From positions 1-47,102 of the forward strand of contig JAJTGR010000092.1 in NCBI GenBank assembly GCA_021299375.1: a stretch of 47,102 nt of DNA, given 5' to 3'. Position numbers and translations under genes: made by a program. Below, piece by piece: positions 38,265-44,684 of this stretch (position 1 is its first letter; each line of letters opens with the position of its first letter). The DNA is from Gemmatimonadota bacterium. GTDB lineage: Bacteria; Gemmatimonadota; Gemmatimonadetes; Gemmatimonadales; Gemmatimonadaceae. The notes under the pieces are model-generated. The model had not been told where the DNA came from, made no database searches, and was given only the letters and a program-made list of their open reading frames with translations.

Positions 38265-38753
38265 TTACCGAATGACGAAGTTGAGCGGTGGCGCCTCCCA
38301 CACCGTCGTGCTGCCGCGGAGCACTCGAACACTCAGGCGTGAGGCCCCCGGGCTCTGCCCACGCAGCTGGCCACCCAATCGATCGCCCGCCCACGACGCG
38401 CGTGCCGGGTCTTCGATGACGACCGGGAGCGAATGGTCGGCGTGGTTCTGCAACGTGAACCATTCGTTGCGCGGCGGCATGTCGTGATCGTCGGGCGCGC
38501 GCCCCTGCTTCACGAAGTGCACCCGCAACGTGCGGGCGCCGCCGGCCGCCACCGTGGGGAACCCGTGCCAATGATCGTCGTGCGAGAACATGATGTCGCC
38601 CGTCTGCGGATCTTCCACCACGATGCTGGCGATCTCGAGACGGGGCGCAGACGGCGGCGGGGCGGCCACGTCACCGCCACCGCCGCACGCCGCGAGCAGC
38701 CAGGCGGCCGCTGCACCGATGGCGGACCGTCGAATGTTGGACAGGGTGCGCAT
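38265..38753 (-). CDS. His-rich lipoprotein in zinc-uptake-like operon
   Basis: A 162-residue lipoprotein. The signal peptide RRSAIGAAAAWLLAAC ends in the lipobox LAAC, and a Gly run follows. The mature part has an Ig-like or beta-sandwich look and a histidine/aspartate cluster (SHDDHWHGFP, later DDHDMPPRN and NHADHS) well suited to bind zinc or copper. The ATG at 38753 has a strong GGAGGAG ribosome-binding site. It is the last gene of the operon, 14 bases after another lipoprotein gene. I do not recognise a named family. It is probably a periplasmic or surface metal-binding accessory of the receptor. Confidence 0.65.
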   Translation of the reverse strand: MRTLSNIRRSAIGAAAAWLLAACGGGGDVAAPPPSAPRLEIASIVVEDPQTGDIMFSHDDHWHGFPTVAAGGARTLRVHFVKQGRAPDDHDMPPRNEWFTLQNHADHSLPVVIEDPARASWAGDRLGGQLRGQSPGASRLSVRVLRGSTTVWEAPPLNFVIR

Positions 38754-38767
38754 GAAGCTCCTCCGAA

Positions 38768-39229
38768 TCAGCGGGCCGCCGGACAGGCAGCTCTGGGGTG
38801 AACGATCACGTCGAGCCACGGGGACACGAGGTCGGCGTGCGTGAGATGCCACACGAGAAAGCGCACCCGCGTGGTACCAGGCGCGAGCGCGAACAGCTTG
38901 CCACGCCCCCGCAGCGGCTCCCACGCCACCAGGGCGTCGGCGCTCTCGCCACGGATCTCGAGGTCCCGTCGTGAGACGAGATCCACGGGCACCCCGCGGA
39001 AATCGAGCGCCTGGGGCAGCAGGGTGCGCACCTCGTCGACGCACAGCTGCAGCGGGGCGCCGGTCCACGTGCGGTTGTCGGTGGTGCGGGCCAGCACGGC
39101 ACCGGAGACGGAGTCGGCGAAGACCAGATCGGCCACCTCCGCATGCGGCGTGACCACCGCAATCGGGTGGTCGCAGGCCGCCACCAGCGCGAGACTCGCC
39201 GCGGCGAATCGGGTCGAGAGTCGAGGCAT
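38768..39229 (-). CDS. small lipoprotein following the TonB receptor
   Basis: A 153-residue lipoprotein (signal STRFAAASLALVAAC, lipobox VAAC), then a histidine-containing start (CDHPIAVVTPHAEVADLVF). The core has strands such as LFALAPGTTRVRFLVWHLTHAD, resembling a bacterial Ig-like fold with an aromatic/His edge. The ATG at 39229 shares one base with the TonB receptor stop (TGATG), so translation is coupled. It is followed by the His-rich lipoprotein. No named family is recognised. Function is inferred only from being sandwiched in this operon. Confidence 0.6.
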   Translation of the reverse strand: MPRLSTRFAAASLALVAACDHPIAVVTPHAEVADLVFADSVSGAVLARTTDNRTWTGAPLQLCVDEVRTLLPQALDFRGVPVDLVSRRDLEIRGESADALVAWEPLRGRGKLFALAPGTTRVRFLVWHLTHADLVSPWLDVIVHPRAACPAAR

Positions 39230-41508
39230 CACCAGCCCCAACGGTAGAACAGGCGCAGATTGCGCCCTGGCTGCGGCGCGACCTGCTTGGCCCGCCACAG
39301 GTGATCGCGCCAATCGGCATCGAAGACGTTGTCCACCGACGCGGTGATCTCGTGCAGTTGCCTGCCGACGATCCAGCGACGCGACGCGCTGGCGTTGGCG
39401 ACGACCCACCCATCGGTGGGACAGAACTCGGCGGGCAGCAGCGCAGGCGCCCCTGCCCCCGCCACGGCCTGCGACGCCGCGAGCGCACAGGTGGTCCGTC
39501 CGAGGGTTTCGGGCGCCGGCGGGACGCGCCCCTGACGCGCAGCGGCTTCGGCGCCGGCCGTCACACTCCAGCGCGCATTCTCCCACCGGCCCTGCAGGCG
39601 ACTCCGCAGCGGCGGCATGGCCGGCAGTGGCGTCCAGTCCGGTGCGTTGGCCGCTGCCATCGCCGACGCCGCGAGTGAACGCTGGACGCCGTGGACCCAC
39701 GACACGGTCCCCTCGAGCGCGAGGCCGCGGACCCGGGGCACCCGCCACTCGAGACGCCCCTCAGCACCATGCAGACGGGCGTCGGCCTGTTCGGCGCGGT
39801 ACACGTTGTAGCGGCGCAGGCGGCGGTCACGCACCGGTTCGCCGGTGACCGCATCCACGAGCGGCTGCTGATAGATGAAGTCGCGGACGCGCATGGCGAA
39901 CACGCTCATCTCGCCGGTCAGCGTCCGACGGGCGAGACGTACGAAGAGGTCGGCGCCATTGCCGCGTTCCGCGCGGAGCTGCGGATTGCCCACTTCGTAG
40001 GCGTACGTGGCGAGGTGCGGCCCGGCCGAGAAGAGCTCCTCGATGGCCGGCGGACGGAAGGCTCGGGTGACACTGGCTCCGAGTGTCACGCCGCCCCCGG
40101 CACCGACGGTGAGACCGACGCTGCCGGTGGGCGTGCGGAAGGCGCGAGTACGGACGTCGCGCACGAGCGCCGTTTCGGTACTGTCGAGCGGCACGATGCG
40201 CGCGGCGTCGAAGCGCGCGCCCCACTGGAGGCGTACGGCGCGGCCACCGAAGAGCGCGTCCAGCTCCATCTCCTCCATGGCGAACACCGCGCCCGAGCGC
40301 ATCACGCCCGGACGCGTCCCCGTGAAGCTTCCTTCGGCGCGGAAGTCCCGCCACTGCGCCCACACACCGGCGCTGCCGCGCACAGGCACGCCGGCGTGGC
40401 GCACGTACTGCACGAGCGCATCGCCGTTGGCCATGAGCTGACCGAAACGCGTGCCCACGAAGCCGCCACGCTCGAGTTCCGACTGCTCGAAGCGCACGAA
40501 CTGCGTGGAGACGTTGGCCTGGGTGAGCCGTGGACGCCACCGCGGAGCCGCGGAGCTCTCCAGCGCGCGCCAGGAGCCGTCGAGACGGCCGCTGCGGCGC
40601 GCCAACTCCACGTACACACCGCCATCGTGCGCCCCCGGCAGCACGATGCCGGCAAAGCTCGCCGGCACACCGTAGGTGCTGGCCACGTCGCGCGCAGCAC
40701 CGCCGAGTCGCCAGGTGCCGAACGACGTGGTGACATCCACCAGGGCCGCGCCGGCGCCCACATCGTGTCCACGCAAGTCGGAAAAGGGGAGCGGCCCGCG
40801 CGGCGCCCGCGTGTCACCGGCGGTGCGCCACGAGCCGCTCACGCGCCAGGACAGCGGGCCGACGCCGCCACGCACGCTGCCATGGGCGACGCCGCCGTTG
40901 TTCACCGATTCGCCCTGCCCGGTGAACGTCCCCGACACCAGCCGGGCGGCCCGCTCGGTGGGCACGTCGTCGCGCACCACGTTGACCACGCCGCCGAGGC
41001 TGTTGCTCCCGAAGAGCAGTCCGGCCGGACCTCGGATGATCTCCACTCGTCGGGCCGTCATGGGATCGATGGTGACCGCGTGATCGGGCGCGGTGGTGGC
41101 GATGTCGCCCGTGCGCTGCCCGTCCTCGAGTACGAGCACGCGGTCGCCGCTGAGGCCGCGAATGACCGGTTGCGTGGCCATGGGGCCGTTGCTGCGCGCC
41201 GTGACCCCGGGCTCGCCGGCAATGGTGGCGGCGAGCGACGGCGCCAGACGGCGATCGAGCGCGCGCCCCTCCAGCACGCTCGCCGGGCGCGCGAGCGACA
41301 GGCCGCTGCCCTGCACCGCTGTGACCTTGATGGTGCCGAGCACTTGCGCGCGCGTGGAGTCACGCCGCGCGGTACTGTCGGCCGTGCGTACGACACGCGC
41401 ACGCGCCGCGGCCGTGGTGTCCTGCTGCGACAGCGCGGCAACGGGGAATAGCGTCCCCGCCGCCGCGAACGTGCACACCAAGCGCCGGGTGGGGCGCTGC
41501 CACGTCAC
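39229..41508 (-). CDS. TonB-dependent outer-membrane receptor, ZnuD-like
   Basis: A 759-residue receptor. After the signal peptide (LVCTFAAAGTLFPVAALS), a TonB-box-like TIKVTAV precedes the plug domain. The plug contains QPVIRGLSGDRVLVLEDGQR, APDHAVTIDP and VEIIRGPAGLLFGSNSLGGVVNVV. The barrel ends with LRLFYRWGW. The APDHAVTIDPM...VEIIRGPA order is what I recall for ZnuD-type zinc receptors. The start is GTG at 41508, overlapping the propeller-lipoprotein stop as GTGA; the frame upstream of it lies within that gene. Its position between an AztD-like protein and two lipoproteins supports metal uptake, with zinc the leading candidate. Energy would come from TonB-ExbBD encoded elsewhere. Confidence 0.82.
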   Translation of the reverse strand: MTWQRPTRRLVCTFAAAGTLFPVAALSQQDTTAAARARVVRTADSTARRDSTRAQVLGTIKVTAVQGSGLSLARPASVLEGRALDRRLAPSLAATIAGEPGVTARSNGPMATQPVIRGLSGDRVLVLEDGQRTGDIATTAPDHAVTIDPMTARRVEIIRGPAGLLFGSNSLGGVVNVVRDDVPTERAARLVSGTFTGQGESVNNGGVAHGSVRGGVGPLSWRVSGSWRTAGDTRAPRGPLPFSDLRGHDVGAGAALVDVTTSFGTWRLGGAARDVASTYGVPASFAGIVLPGAHDGGVYVELARRSGRLDGSWRALESSAAPRWRPRLTQANVSTQFVRFEQSELERGGFVGTRFGQLMANGDALVQYVRHAGVPVRGSAGVWAQWRDFRAEGSFTGTRPGVMRSGAVFAMEEMELDALFGGRAVRLQWGARFDAARIVPLDSTETALVRDVRTRAFRTPTGSVGLTVGAGGGVTLGASVTRAFRPPAIEELFSAGPHLATYAYEVGNPQLRAERGNGADLFVRLARRTLTGEMSVFAMRVRDFIYQQPLVDAVTGEPVRDRRLRRYNVYRAEQADARLHGAEGRLEWRVPRVRGLALEGTVSWVHGVQRSLAASAMAAANAPDWTPLPAMPPLRSRLQGRWENARWSVTAGAEAAARQGRVPPAPETLGRTTCALAASQAVAGAGAPALLPAEFCPTDGWVVANASASRRWIVGRQLHEITASVDNVFDADWRDHLWRAKQVAPQPGRNLRLFYRWGW

Positions 41509-42782
41509 CGCTGCAACGAGCGGTTCTCGCGGACACCGAGCACGACGATGCGCTCGGGGGAGCCGCCGACATTCATGGTGCGGGCGATCGTGGGCACACC
41601 GCTGCTGCTGATCGCGATCTCGTACACGCGGCCCTGCGTGGGGCTCGTGATGTACGCCACGCCCTCGGCGAAGGCGAAGAACGGCGTGAGCACCGTGCCG
41701 CTGGTGGGCATGGGCGGCACAAGACCAGAGAGCGAGCCCGTCACTTGACGCGTGCTCATGTCCACCACGTGCAGGTTGCCGGTACGGCCGAGAATGAGCG
41801 CGTAGCGACCGCTCTGGTCGATGTCGGCGGTCCAGTCGAGATCCCCGCCGGGGATGGTGATCGGCACGATCGTGCGTGAGGCCACCTGCGCCACGCCCAG
41901 GGCGCGCGTGGCCGTGCTGACGGGCTGCCCACGGATGGACACGCGGACGAGAAAGTTCGGCTGACCATCGCGCGCCCACACGGAGCCAACGCCGAAGCGC
42001 GGATCGGTGGCGTGCGTGACCTTGCTGAAGGCCGGCGTGGTGCCGTTCATGGTCACCAGCAGCGCGCCATCCGCGCAGCCGTAGAGCTTGCCCGCAGCAT
42101 TGCCAGCCAGGCCGTGCAGGCCGGGGCAGGTGGTGTTGCGCGCGACCTCCTGGCCCTGACGGTTGAAGACGACCACGCCATTCGGCAGCGCCGGGTTGGC
42201 CGGGTCCTGAATGGACGCGGACATGAAGCCGCCGTCGAACGTCGCCATGCCGGCGCCGTGGTGCGCTGGCCCGGTGCGAATCGTCGAAACGGGCTGCGTG
42301 TTGCCGGCGGCGACGCCCTGCTCGCTCCAGAAGCGGACATTGCCGCTCCCGTCGAAGTGCACCGACACCAGGTCGCCGTTGTAGTTGCCGTGAATCGGCC
42401 GAATGTCGGAGAAGCTGCCCACGAGGCGCGGCGCCTGCTTCACGCCGCGGCCATTCTGCTCGAAGACACCGCCGTCGATGAAGGAGACCTGATCGCGCGT
42501 CTGGAAGTGCGCGAAGGCGATGCGCCCCTTGGCGGTGTACAGGTAGGTGATGCGCGACGGCAGGCCGCCCATGGAGTCGACGCGCTGGCCCGTGGTGGCA
42601 TCGAAGACGCGCGCGAACGGCGCGGTATCGGAGACGAGGAGACGACGGAACTCGGCGGCAGCCACCGTGGGAACCGCGGCGGTGCCGTTGTCGTCGCCGC
42701 AGGCGGCGAACAGGGCGGCCGCCGCAGCGGCGGTCACGACACGGAGGACGACCCGGGAGCGAATCGAAGGACCAGCACGCAT
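41505..42782 (-). CDS. beta-propeller lipoprotein, AztD-like zinc metallochaperone
   Basis: A 425-residue protein with a lipoprotein signal (VVTAAAAAALFAAC, lipobox FAAC), then a seven-blade-like propeller. The segments PAHHGAGMATFDGGF and CPGLHGLAG, with a second Cys in YGCADGALLV, match my memory of AztD periplasmic zinc chaperones. In those, histidines bind zinc and the two cysteines may bridge. Here the protein is anchored by lipid instead of being soluble. It is the first gene of the operon behind a clear sigma70-like promoter. The ATG at 42782 fits the signal peptide. It may hand zinc to or from the coupled TonB receptor. Cargo is inferred. Confidence 0.75.
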   Translation of the reverse strand: MRAGPSIRSRVVLRVVTAAAAAALFAACGDDNGTAAVPTVAAAEFRRLLVSDTAPFARVFDATTGQRVDSMGGLPSRITYLYTAKGRIAFAHFQTRDQVSFIDGGVFEQNGRGVKQAPRLVGSFSDIRPIHGNYNGDLVSVHFDGSGNVRFWSEQGVAAGNTQPVSTIRTGPAHHGAGMATFDGGFMSASIQDPANPALPNGVVVFNRQGQEVARNTTCPGLHGLAGNAAGKLYGCADGALLVTMNGTTPAFSKVTHATDPRFGVGSVWARDGQPNFLVRVSIRGQPVSTATRALGVAQVASRTIVPITIPGGDLDWTADIDQSGRYALILGRTGNLHVVDMSTRQVTGSLSGLVPPMPTSGTVLTPFFAFAEGVAYITSPTQGRVYEIAISSSGVPTIARTMNVGGSPERIVVLGVRENRSLQR

Positions 42783-42807
42783 AAAGCCCCAGAGAAACGG
42801 TTATGAG

Positions 42808-42858
42808 TATGCCATATCAACGCGACGGGAAAATAGGTTCGCCGTAATGATCTGTCAA
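42808..42858 (-). promoter_or_regulatory. zinc-operon promoter and possible operator
   Basis: On the minus strand a perfect TTGACA -35 (42853-42858) and a TATTTT -10 (42830-42835) are exactly 17 bases apart, the clearest sigma70-type promoter in the window. The 9-base palindrome TATGGCATA (42808-42816) lies just downstream of the expected start point, a good place for a repressor. It is AT-rich against a GC-rich background. A Zur/Fur-type regulator is a guess. Confidence 0.6.
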
Positions 42859-43023
42859 TATCGATAAAGTCGCCACGCGCCCGGTCGCGGCCCTTGCCCC
42901 TGCGGCAGCACAGTCACGGCCATGGCCACCCCACAGCATGACGCGCCTCCGTGCCTGCAGCTGTGGCGGGCATCCGTTTCGCCGGTCCCGCCGACCACGA
43001 GGCCATTCACGCCCAACCTACCG

Positions 43024-44550
43024 GACGTTCGTGAGGAGATTCCACCACATCCCCCGAACGCCGAGGGGCGCCTGGCGGACCGCTTCCCCGATGAGAGCGT
43101 GTATGCGGTGGGCGAGCTGCGGGGCGCATGATCGGGAGCGTCGCCGGCCGCACCAGGTGCCCCGTCTCCTTCGGCCAGAAGCGGGGCGACATCGACCCGT
43201 ACCTGCCGTGCTGCTGCCCCCGTGGAGATCAGGGTGCTCGCCGTGGAGCCGGCCTATCGGGTCACGCGCATCTTCGCCCGGCTCATGGCACGCATCACCG
43301 CCATGTCCGCGCGCGTGGCTGCCATGTCGACGTGATTTCCGGCACGACGCGGCAGCTGCCCCTCTACCGCACGGTCGGCTTCACGCCGTTCGGTTCGCTG
43401 GTCGGCGCCGGGGGCGCGCAGCACCAGCCGATGTATGTACCGGCCGCACAGGTGAGCGCCTGGCCGGTCGCCATGGCCGTGGCATCGCCAGCACTCGCCA
43501 CTGAGGGACACTTCCTTCCCGGGCCGTGCGTCCCCGCACCGAGGTGCGCGCCGCCTTCGCGCACGAGGCGACGTCGCATCGCGCCGCGGTATTCCGTGAG
43601 CGGGTGCAAGCAGTACAGCACCAGCTGTGCGAGCTCACCGGGGCGCACCACGACACGTTGCGCCTGGGGTCGGACACACTCGCCAACGACGTCATGGCTG
43701 CGCACTTGCGCCTGCTCGGTGCGCATGGAGTGCTCGGCAGCAACGACGAGTTCGAGGGGCGTCTGGTGGATCATGCCGTCCGGCGTGGCCTGTCGTGCGA
43801 GGTGATCCGCACGCCCCGGGGGCACGGCGTTCGAGGCGGAGGCGGTGGATGCACAGATGCACGTGGCAGAGGCACGTGGCAGAGGCACGTGGCAGAGGCA
43901 CGTGGCACACGCCCGCTGGCTACAGGCCGTGCACACCGAGACATCCACCGGGATGGTGAACGACCTCCCGATGCTCCGGGCGATCGCGGCACGGCGCACG
44001 GCTGGCGCTCGACGCCATCGGCAGCGTCGGCGCCATTCCCGTCGATCTGACCGGCGTGTGGTGCGCCAGCACCGTCAGCGGCAAGGCCCTTTCGTCGTGG
44101 GCCGGCGTGGCCATCGTCCTGCACACGGAGCAGCCACAGCCCGCCGAGTCGGGGATCCCTCGCTCTCTCGACCTCGGGCCGGCCATCGCCCACGACAGTC
44201 GCCATGCACGCAGTCGGCGATTCCCATCGACGCCCTAGCGACCAGCCTCGAGGTCACCGCGTGGCCTGTCCACGTTTGGTCGCGCGCGCGCGACGGCCGC
44301 TGGCTGCGCGGGGCACTCGAACGCGCCGGGTTCAACCTCGTGGCGCCACCCGAGGTGGCATCGCCAGACGTGCACACGCTGGCCCTCCCCGCCAACCTGT
44401 CCGCGTCGACCATGGGCGAGCTACGGCGGGCGCGGAGGTGGCTCGTGCGTTTCGAGAGCGGCAACCCGCGCGCGCGGAACTGGTTGCAGGTGGGCCTGCT
44501 GGGCGAACACCTGGGTGTCGCGCTGCGGCGCTACCGGCCGGGCTGGCCGA
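43024..44550 (+). pseudogene. GNAT-plus-class V aminotransferase fusion, heavily frameshifted
   Basis: Family-like segments appear in order on the plus strand but in changing frames: EEIPPHPPNAEGRLADRF (about 43024-43128), SFGQKRGDIDPYLP (about 43160-43210), EIRVLAVEPAYR (about 43223-43260), VISGTTRQLPLYRTVGFTPFG (about 43330-43410), LTGAHHDTLRLGSDTLANDV (about 43630-43700), ARWLQAVHTETSTGMVNDLP (about 43912-43975), then GSVGAIPVDLTGV and STVSGKALSSWAG with the PLP-lysine motif SGK (about 44020-44110). The C-terminal ARNWLQVGLLGE is at about 44470-44510. The ancestral protein would be an N-acetyltransferase fused to a class V PLP aminotransferase. At least six frameshifts plus repeat insertions rule out a product. 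The N-terminal part of the GNAT domain is missing. Confidence 0.7.
43861..43910. repeat. 13-bp tandem repeat inside the aminotransferase pseudogene
   Basis: Three exact copies of acgtggcagaggc (43861-43873, 43874-43886, 43887-43899) and a partial fourth lie between the N-terminal and middle aminotransferase segments. As 13 is not a multiple of three, each added copy shifts the frame, so this expansion is itself one cause of the decay. Confidence 0.85.
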
Positions 44551-44585
44551 TGCCGCACGTGGCGACCGACTCGGCGCGGGGGGCC

Positions 44586-44684
44586 GCATGGCCGCCGCAT
44601 GACCGCCGCATGACCGCCGCATGGCCGCCGCATGGCCGCCGCATGGCTGTCGCATTGCTGTCGCATTGCTGTCGCATGGCTGTC
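44586..44684. repeat. 11-bp tandem repeat, nine copies
   Basis: Nine contiguous 11-bp units. The first five are gcatggccgcc or the gcatgaccgcc variant; the last four are gcatggctgtc or gcattgctgtc. The two halves show that a variant unit was amplified after it arose. It sits just past the pseudogene end. From 44685 to 44834 no gene or other structure is visible. Confidence 0.88.

Follow-up and report, generated by a model that had tools for sequence, protein, structure and literature searches.

A candidate zinc-starvation operon in Gemmatimonas comprising an AztD-derived propeller lipoprotein, a ZnuD-like TonB-dependent receptor and two paralogous lipoproteins

Introduction

The hand-over of zinc after its passage through the outer membrane is, to our knowledge, poorly known. 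The TonB-dependent receptor ZnuD of Neisseria ligates zinc by Asp99, His100, Glu340 and His499, and its pocket was reported to be too narrow for heme (PMC4557270). The propeller protein AztD of Paracoccus possesses two zinc sites, site 1 formed by His124, His167 and His218 and site 2 formed by His99, His102, Asp104 and His408, and site 2 alone was shown to transfer zinc to AztC (PMC6689063). In streptococci, the Pht proteins carry HxxHxH as zinc-binding and zinc-transfer triad and pass zinc to AdcAII (PMC3842936), and the Zrg zinc ABC system uses ZrgA as its binding protein (PMC9820375). In Bacteroides, the propeller lipoprotein BtuG caps the receptor BtuB and feeds its substrate into it (PMC10404256). 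In the literature searched, no paper was found that treats AztD and a TonB receptor as parts of a single system.

Here, a locus within a stretch of 47,102 nucleotides from a Gemmatimonas genome (the window) was analyzed, for which a first-pass annotation of the DNA had proposed a four-gene zinc acquisition operon with three lipoproteins. Its coordinates for the operon, for the overlaps GTGA at 41505 and TGATG at 39229 and for a 14-base gap all proved exact on recheck.

Results

Positions 38265-42782 hold four tightly packed genes on the minus strand, which encode in the order of transcription an AztD-like propeller, a ZnuD-like TonB-dependent receptor (TBDR) and the lipoproteins LP3 and LP4 (Table 1). 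The GTG start codon of the TBDR gene overlaps the stop codon of the AztD-like gene, the start codon of LP3 sits on the TBDR stop codon, and LP3 and LP4 are spaced by exactly 14 bases. The regulated unit comprises the promoter and operators at 42802-42865 in addition to the genes, and the earlier span should be extended accordingly. Upstream of the operon, short tandem repeats are present at 43854-43907 and 44583-44680 of the window (a 13-base unit, CAGAGGCACGTGG, repeated 4.2 times and an 11-base unit, GCCGCATGGCC, repeated 8.9 times). The region 42987-44325, which is 63-70% identical to the corresponding stretch of three relatives and contains no obvious intact gene, may be a decayed gene.

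Table 1. Positions of the operon genes and promoter elements in the window
Feature	Position	Strand	Remarks
LP4 lipoprotein	38265..38753	-	162 aa; lipobox C23; HxxHxH (H58, H61, H63) and D89-H90
LP3 lipoprotein	38768..39229	-	153 aa; lipobox C19; conserved CEHP, PHxE and WHxxHxD motifs
ZnuD-like TonB-dependent receptor (TBDR)	39229..41508	-	759 aa; GTG start at 41508; Pfam Plug and barrel
AztD-like propeller-family lipoprotein	41505..42782	-	425 aa; lipobox LFAAC, C28
Main operator-like palindrome TTGATATGGCATACTCAT (minus-strand reading)	42802..42821		just downstream of the -10 hexamer
Sigma-70-like promoter TTGACA-17-TATTTT	42830..42858	-	10/12 matches; 0.1 expected in shuffles
Second operator-like palindrome	42846..42865		overlaps the -35 hexamer; matrix score 14.5, ranking second among the sites of the window

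The AztD-like gene was found at full length in 8 of 30 Gemmatimonas genomes including the genome of the window, and all eight carry the four genes in the same order. Since this order is kept in each of the seven relatives having the AztD-like gene, with protein identities to the window of 62-84%, the arrangement is not due to chance. Alignments revealed that all lipobox cysteines are conserved across the Gemmatimonas copies. Moreover, the operon is flanked in the same way in the Gemmatimonas relatives: a gene for a penicillin-binding protein lies upstream of it and, where the sequence extends far enough, one for an SPFH-type lipoprotein lies downstream. Due to this identical flanking DNA the operon is seen as an inherited chromosomal locus, and a recent insertion was rejected for the genus. 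Its patchy presence within Gemmatimonas implies that it is dispensable.

Outside the genus, the order AztD-like gene, TBDR, LP3 and LP4 is intact in four other Gemmatimonadota genomes (G174, G212, G229 and G125), whose operon proteins share about 30-50% identity with those of the window. The first-pass annotation had left it open whether the gene order recurs anywhere; it does, within the genus as well as in the wider phylum. In genome G309 the operon is split by contig ends, which is consistent with adjacency, and in G199 the operon region stops at a contig edge, while G103 contains TBDR, LP3 and LP4 without the AztD-like gene and G218 contains the AztD-like gene alone. Among 298 genomes of the phylum sample, the AztD-like gene and LP4 were each detected in 12, with 10 genomes common to both (Fisher p=3e-15, relatedness ignored); the LP4 count excludes weak hits (about 22 bits) of G021, G122 and G008, which fall in the signal-peptide region.

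The promoter of the operon contains two operator-like palindromes. Zur promoters have been described with two boxes, one over the -35 hexamer and one near the -10 hexamer (PMC6103462). Each of the eight Gemmatimonas genomes has TTGACA or TTGACG, followed by the palindrome TGAK-N8-MTCA, upstream of the AztD-like gene. With these eight operon promoter sites as its sole training set, a matrix assigned its top score in the window, 18.0, to the main palindrome, which is itself one of the eight. In 194 kb from other loci, the matrix detected 10 sites scoring at least 12 as compared to 0.15 expected in shuffles; as these loci were chosen for holding zinc genes, the placement of the sites matters more than their count. 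Top-scoring sites lie in the promoters of a MerC/SO_0444-type transporter pair and of a TBDR gene in the genome of the window, of COG0523/DUF3299 genes in G020, of MerC, Fur-family and TBDR genes in G103, and of AztD-like genes of other families. On both strands, the exact operator pattern occurs three times in the 4.48-Mb genome of the window, one of these being the main palindrome, barely exceeding the two hits of the reversed control, seven times in G020 (control 1) and six times in G103 (control 0). The third match in the genome of the window (C36:76823-76840), which has a QueD-like frame on one side and on the other a large open frame, possibly for another TonB receptor, marks a possible further regulon member. 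In G125 (L040:11821-14909), an operator-like site precedes the genes for a His-rich protein and for a further TonB receptor, with ABC-2 permease genes nearby, possibly a second metal-uptake operon.

A single contig of the genome of the window encodes a Fur-family regulator, a ZigA-type COG0523 GTPase, MerC, an SO_0444-like transporter, a DUF3299 protein and ZrgA; ZigA scored above the NCBIfam cut-off (607.2 vs. 600). COG0523- and DUF3299-type genes are typical of starvation responses. In NCBIfam, the Fur-family regulator (C80:32023-32361) scores best against models of PerR and Fur, though below their cut-offs, and it is called Zur-like here from genomic context only. ZrgA is present in seven of the eight operon-bearing Gemmatimonas genomes and in one of six tested genomes without the operon. 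In the complete genome G103 (L043, C1:4094000-4111000), TBDR, LP3 and LP4 are clustered with genes for DUF3299, an ABC ATPase, an FtsX permease, a DsbA-like protein, MerC, COG0523, an L33-like protein and a Fur-family regulator, with ZrgA (Pfam) on the opposite strand within the cluster. This cluster, which is of the zinc-starvation type, additionally encodes, beside LP3 and LP4, another small lipoprotein that appears to be related. In G229, COG0523 and a Fur-like reading frame are located directly upstream of the operon. The putative role of the operon in zinc metabolism is well supported by promoter palindromes shared with other zinc genes, by the COG0523, Fur-family and Zrg-like neighbours and by three of the four ZnuD ligands, in accordance with the zinc function that the first-pass annotation had proposed. 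The operon may in addition be regulated at its candidate operators by the Fur-family (Zur-like) regulator. A role in periplasmic storage or buffering against zinc excess rather than in uptake would be in line with one co-regulated gene resembling the Cu/Zn efflux transporter SO_0444, and knock-outs of AztD in Paracoccus altered periplasmic zinc accumulation and not growth (PMC6689063). However, the central gene of the operon encodes an energy-driven importer and the operator neighbours include the COG0523- and DUF3299-type genes, and storage is considered very unlikely.

The best NCBIfam model for the TBDR is ZnuD (E=1.8e-40), although its 139 bits are far below the cut-off of 950, and the best PDB match is likewise ZnuD (4rdr). 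D142, H143 and H498 of the TBDR correspond to the ZnuD ligands D99, H100 and H499 and do not vary among the eight Gemmatimonas copies, with E340 lying outside the alignment. For receptor and propeller, the profile searches led to ZnuD and AztD and not to cobalamin or siderophore uptake families, which the first-pass annotation had named as counter-evidence, and with ZnuD as best profile and the zinc ligands conserved a siderophore or cobalamin receptor was rejected. Heme/hemoglobin receptor families score close to, but below, ZnuD; a heme receptor was disfavoured as well, since the D-H motif of the plug and the operator context favour zinc. The TBDR contains only 10 His in 759 residues, as compared to 36 in its Catenovulum homologue, and no His-rich loop, so that the free-ion capture of Neisseria ZnuD may not extend to it. 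The missing loops and the nearly equal scores of the heme/hemoglobin families would also fit import of a zinc-metallophore or of another metal such as cobalt, nickel or copper, with the lipoproteins as binding partners. Such a function is nevertheless improbable: the three ZnuD ligands are conserved, the operator is common to zinc genes, ZigA and ZrgA belong to the context, and the narrow pocket reported for ZnuD argues against heme. In vivo, zinc is the presumed substrate.

The propeller matched NCBIfam AztD (E=1.4e-25), its 89.8 bits being far below the curated cut-off of 400, and was placed with the AztD structures 6cmk and 6ck1 (profile vs. 6cmk 5.7e-50). The equivalents of the site 1 residues, H131, H175 and H223, and of the disulfide, C219/C236, are invariant in an alignment of 16 sequences from three phyla. 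By contrast, the site 2 loop, HGxHxD in AztD, reads FEQNGRG in the window, and site 2 is lost in all eight Gemmatimonas copies. A ZnuA-family protein was not found in any of the 14 Gemmatimonas genomes tested (that of the window and 13 others, three of them single-contig), and in the 96% complete genome of the window neither ZnuA nor an ABC-3 permease was found. Among the carriers of AztD-like genes in the phylum sample, those with ZnuA are G125, whose propeller keeps the H99, G100 and H102 equivalents of site 2 (HGDH), and G218, in whose propeller traces of site 2 remain. On few cases, this suggests that the AztD donor site and the ZnuA-type acceptor may have been lost together.

With site 2 lost and the ZnuA family absent, the propeller is not an AztC-type donor. 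That it is nonetheless a conventional AztD donor to a cluster A-I protein missed in an incomplete genome would agree with the profile and PDB matches to AztD; this is extremely unlikely given the absence of site 2 from every Gemmatimonas copy and of ZnuA or ABC-3 proteins from the genomes listed above, and the conventional donor was rejected. Of the chaperone proposed in the first-pass annotation, the AztD ancestry is retained, whereas hand-on of zinc in the known way is not. The accompanying premise that known AztDs are soluble and travel with AztABC does not hold either, as lipoprotein AztDs were reported in Gram-positives and a ZnuA-family neighbour for only about half of the AztDs (PMC6689063).

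No Pfam, NCBIfam or PDB sequence match was obtained for LP3 or LP4. Comparison of their profiles identified them as homologous (98%, E=2e-13), i.e., as paralogues; the idea of unrelated small lipoproteins was rejected, and of the two unfamiliar lipoproteins described before, unfamiliar holds in that no family of the databases searched covers them. Together, they constitute a family of zinc-associated lipoproteins that is missing from Pfam. Predicted models of both are beta-rich with Ig-like domains, LP4 as an Ig-like beta-sandwich (domain pLDDT about 90, with two of five LP4 models confident), and among the families listed, fold searches with the models returned generic Ig-like domains only. 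Candidate metal-binding residues invariant in the alignments are the triad H58-x-x-H61-x-H63 and D89-H90 in LP4 and H21, H29, E31, H128, H131 and D133 in LP3, and LP3 and LP4 may bind zinc via these conserved His/Asp/Glu clusters. LP4, previously termed His-rich, contains only 7 His in 162 residues; what stands is one conserved HxxHxH triad and a DDHD motif, rather than a broad His content. No significant homology to Pht proteins (PF04270, with several HxxHxH repeats) was detected, one family member giving a weak match at E=0.095, and LP4 has a single triad. A degenerate-pattern scan of species genomes for LP4 outside the phylum gave Gemmatimonas-like loci only, a result that does not show absence outside the phylum because divergent members within it were missed too; a plasmid search for LP4 was empty.

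Discussion

We consider it likely that the locus is a zinc-starvation operon with Zur-like repression, TonB-dependent uptake, a zinc relay by lipoproteins and a non-Znu importer, which is probably switched on under zinc scarcity in Gemmatimonas and its relatives, a group of soil and freshwater. Following this, we propose that a zinc-sensing Fur-family regulator (Zur-like) would repress the operon at the two promoter palindromes and that the ZnuD-type receptor would import zinc, free or chelated, across the outer membrane. The lipid-tethered AztD-derived propeller, having the central three-His site only, would catch or buffer zinc as a partner of the receptor, and LP3 and LP4, the latter by its HxxHxH triad, would bind zinc and pass it along at the outer membrane. 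As these bacteria lack ZnuABC, zinc would reach the cytoplasm by way of other importers, of which a Zrg-like ABC system with ZrgA is the likeliest candidate. The membrane side of the lipoproteins and the order of zinc transfer are what we infer from the genes.

Two layouts of the propeller can be envisaged, a periplasmic buffer or a surface lid similar to BtuG on BtuB. In the latter, which we regard as possible but less likely than not, the propeller would be exported, cap the receptor and feed zinc into it, with LP3 and LP4 working below on the periplasmic side. The propeller lipoprotein gene directly adjoins the TBDR gene, capture loops rich in His are missing from the receptor, and BtuG acts on BtuB in this way. 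Moreover, the mature N-termini of the propellers (CGDD, CSDD or CGED) are similar to SDDDD and SDDFE, signals for surface export in Bacteroidetes (PMC5080379), whose like is absent from LP3 and LP4, and in our analysis CGDD/CSDD would mildly favour the lid. On the other hand, no export signal is established for Gemmatimonadota, on which a literature search gave nothing, homology of the AztD and BtuG propellers is not established either, and in G103 no propeller accompanies the receptor, LP3 and LP4. The fuller version, in which an AztD-derived propeller without AztC forms the lid of a ZnuD-type receptor and LP3 and LP4 form a periplasmic relay to ZrgA, appears doubtful. If true, a lid would make this a lipoprotein-capped TonB-dependent zinc importer outside Bacteroidota.

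The pairing of AztD-like and ZnuD-like proteins is not unique. On a plasmid of the alteromonad Catenovulum, a ZnuD-like receptor gene is immediately followed by a gene for an AztD-like lipoprotein, which contradicts the earlier statement that ZnuD receptors travel without an AztD. This AztD-like gene of Catenovulum adriaticum (plasmid NZ_CP109967.1, 5827-7239 of its locus) is annotated as 5-methyltetrahydrofolate--homocysteine methyltransferase, a probable misannotation. What appears to be new is the four-part set, the LP3/LP4 family and a line of AztD proteins that has neither donor site nor acceptor. The loss of the donor site together with missing ZnuA-type acceptors provides a natural experiment on the role of AztD site 1. 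Furthermore, each step can be tested singly, as receptor, propeller and two lipoproteins form a compact conserved set in organisms without ZnuABC.

In comparison with AztABCD of Paracoccus and Citrobacter, the operon encodes a homologous propeller in which H131/H175/H223 and C219/C236 match site 1 (His124/167/218) and Cys214/231 of AztD (PDB 6CK1, 6CMK); it differs in being lipid-anchored, in the lost transfer site 2, in the absence of AztABC and in sharing an operon with a receptor. The TBDR is homologous to Neisseria ZnuD (PDB 4RDR) in plug and barrel, keeping D99, H100 and H499, but is devoid of His-rich extracellular loops and encoded together with three lipoproteins. The Zrg system of Vibrio comprises ZrgA (PF10986), DUF3299, an ATPase and an FtsX permease; ZrgA and DUF3299 genes are present in the genome of the window and a Zrg-like cluster adjoins TBDR-LP3-LP4 in G103, whereas the operon itself encodes no inner-membrane importer. 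With the streptococcal Pht scavengers, LP4 shares the HxxHxH motif, invariant in LP4, and the concept of a membrane-linked zinc relay, but LP4 has a single triad, a predicted Ig-like fold and a Gram-negative host, which makes this an analogy of motifs and not homology. BtuG-BtuB, used in vitamin B12 uptake by Bacteroides, likewise combines a propeller lipoprotein bearing acidic residues beside the lipid-bearing Cys with a TBDR; its substrate is different, and BtuG is seven-bladed and has no established relation to AztD.
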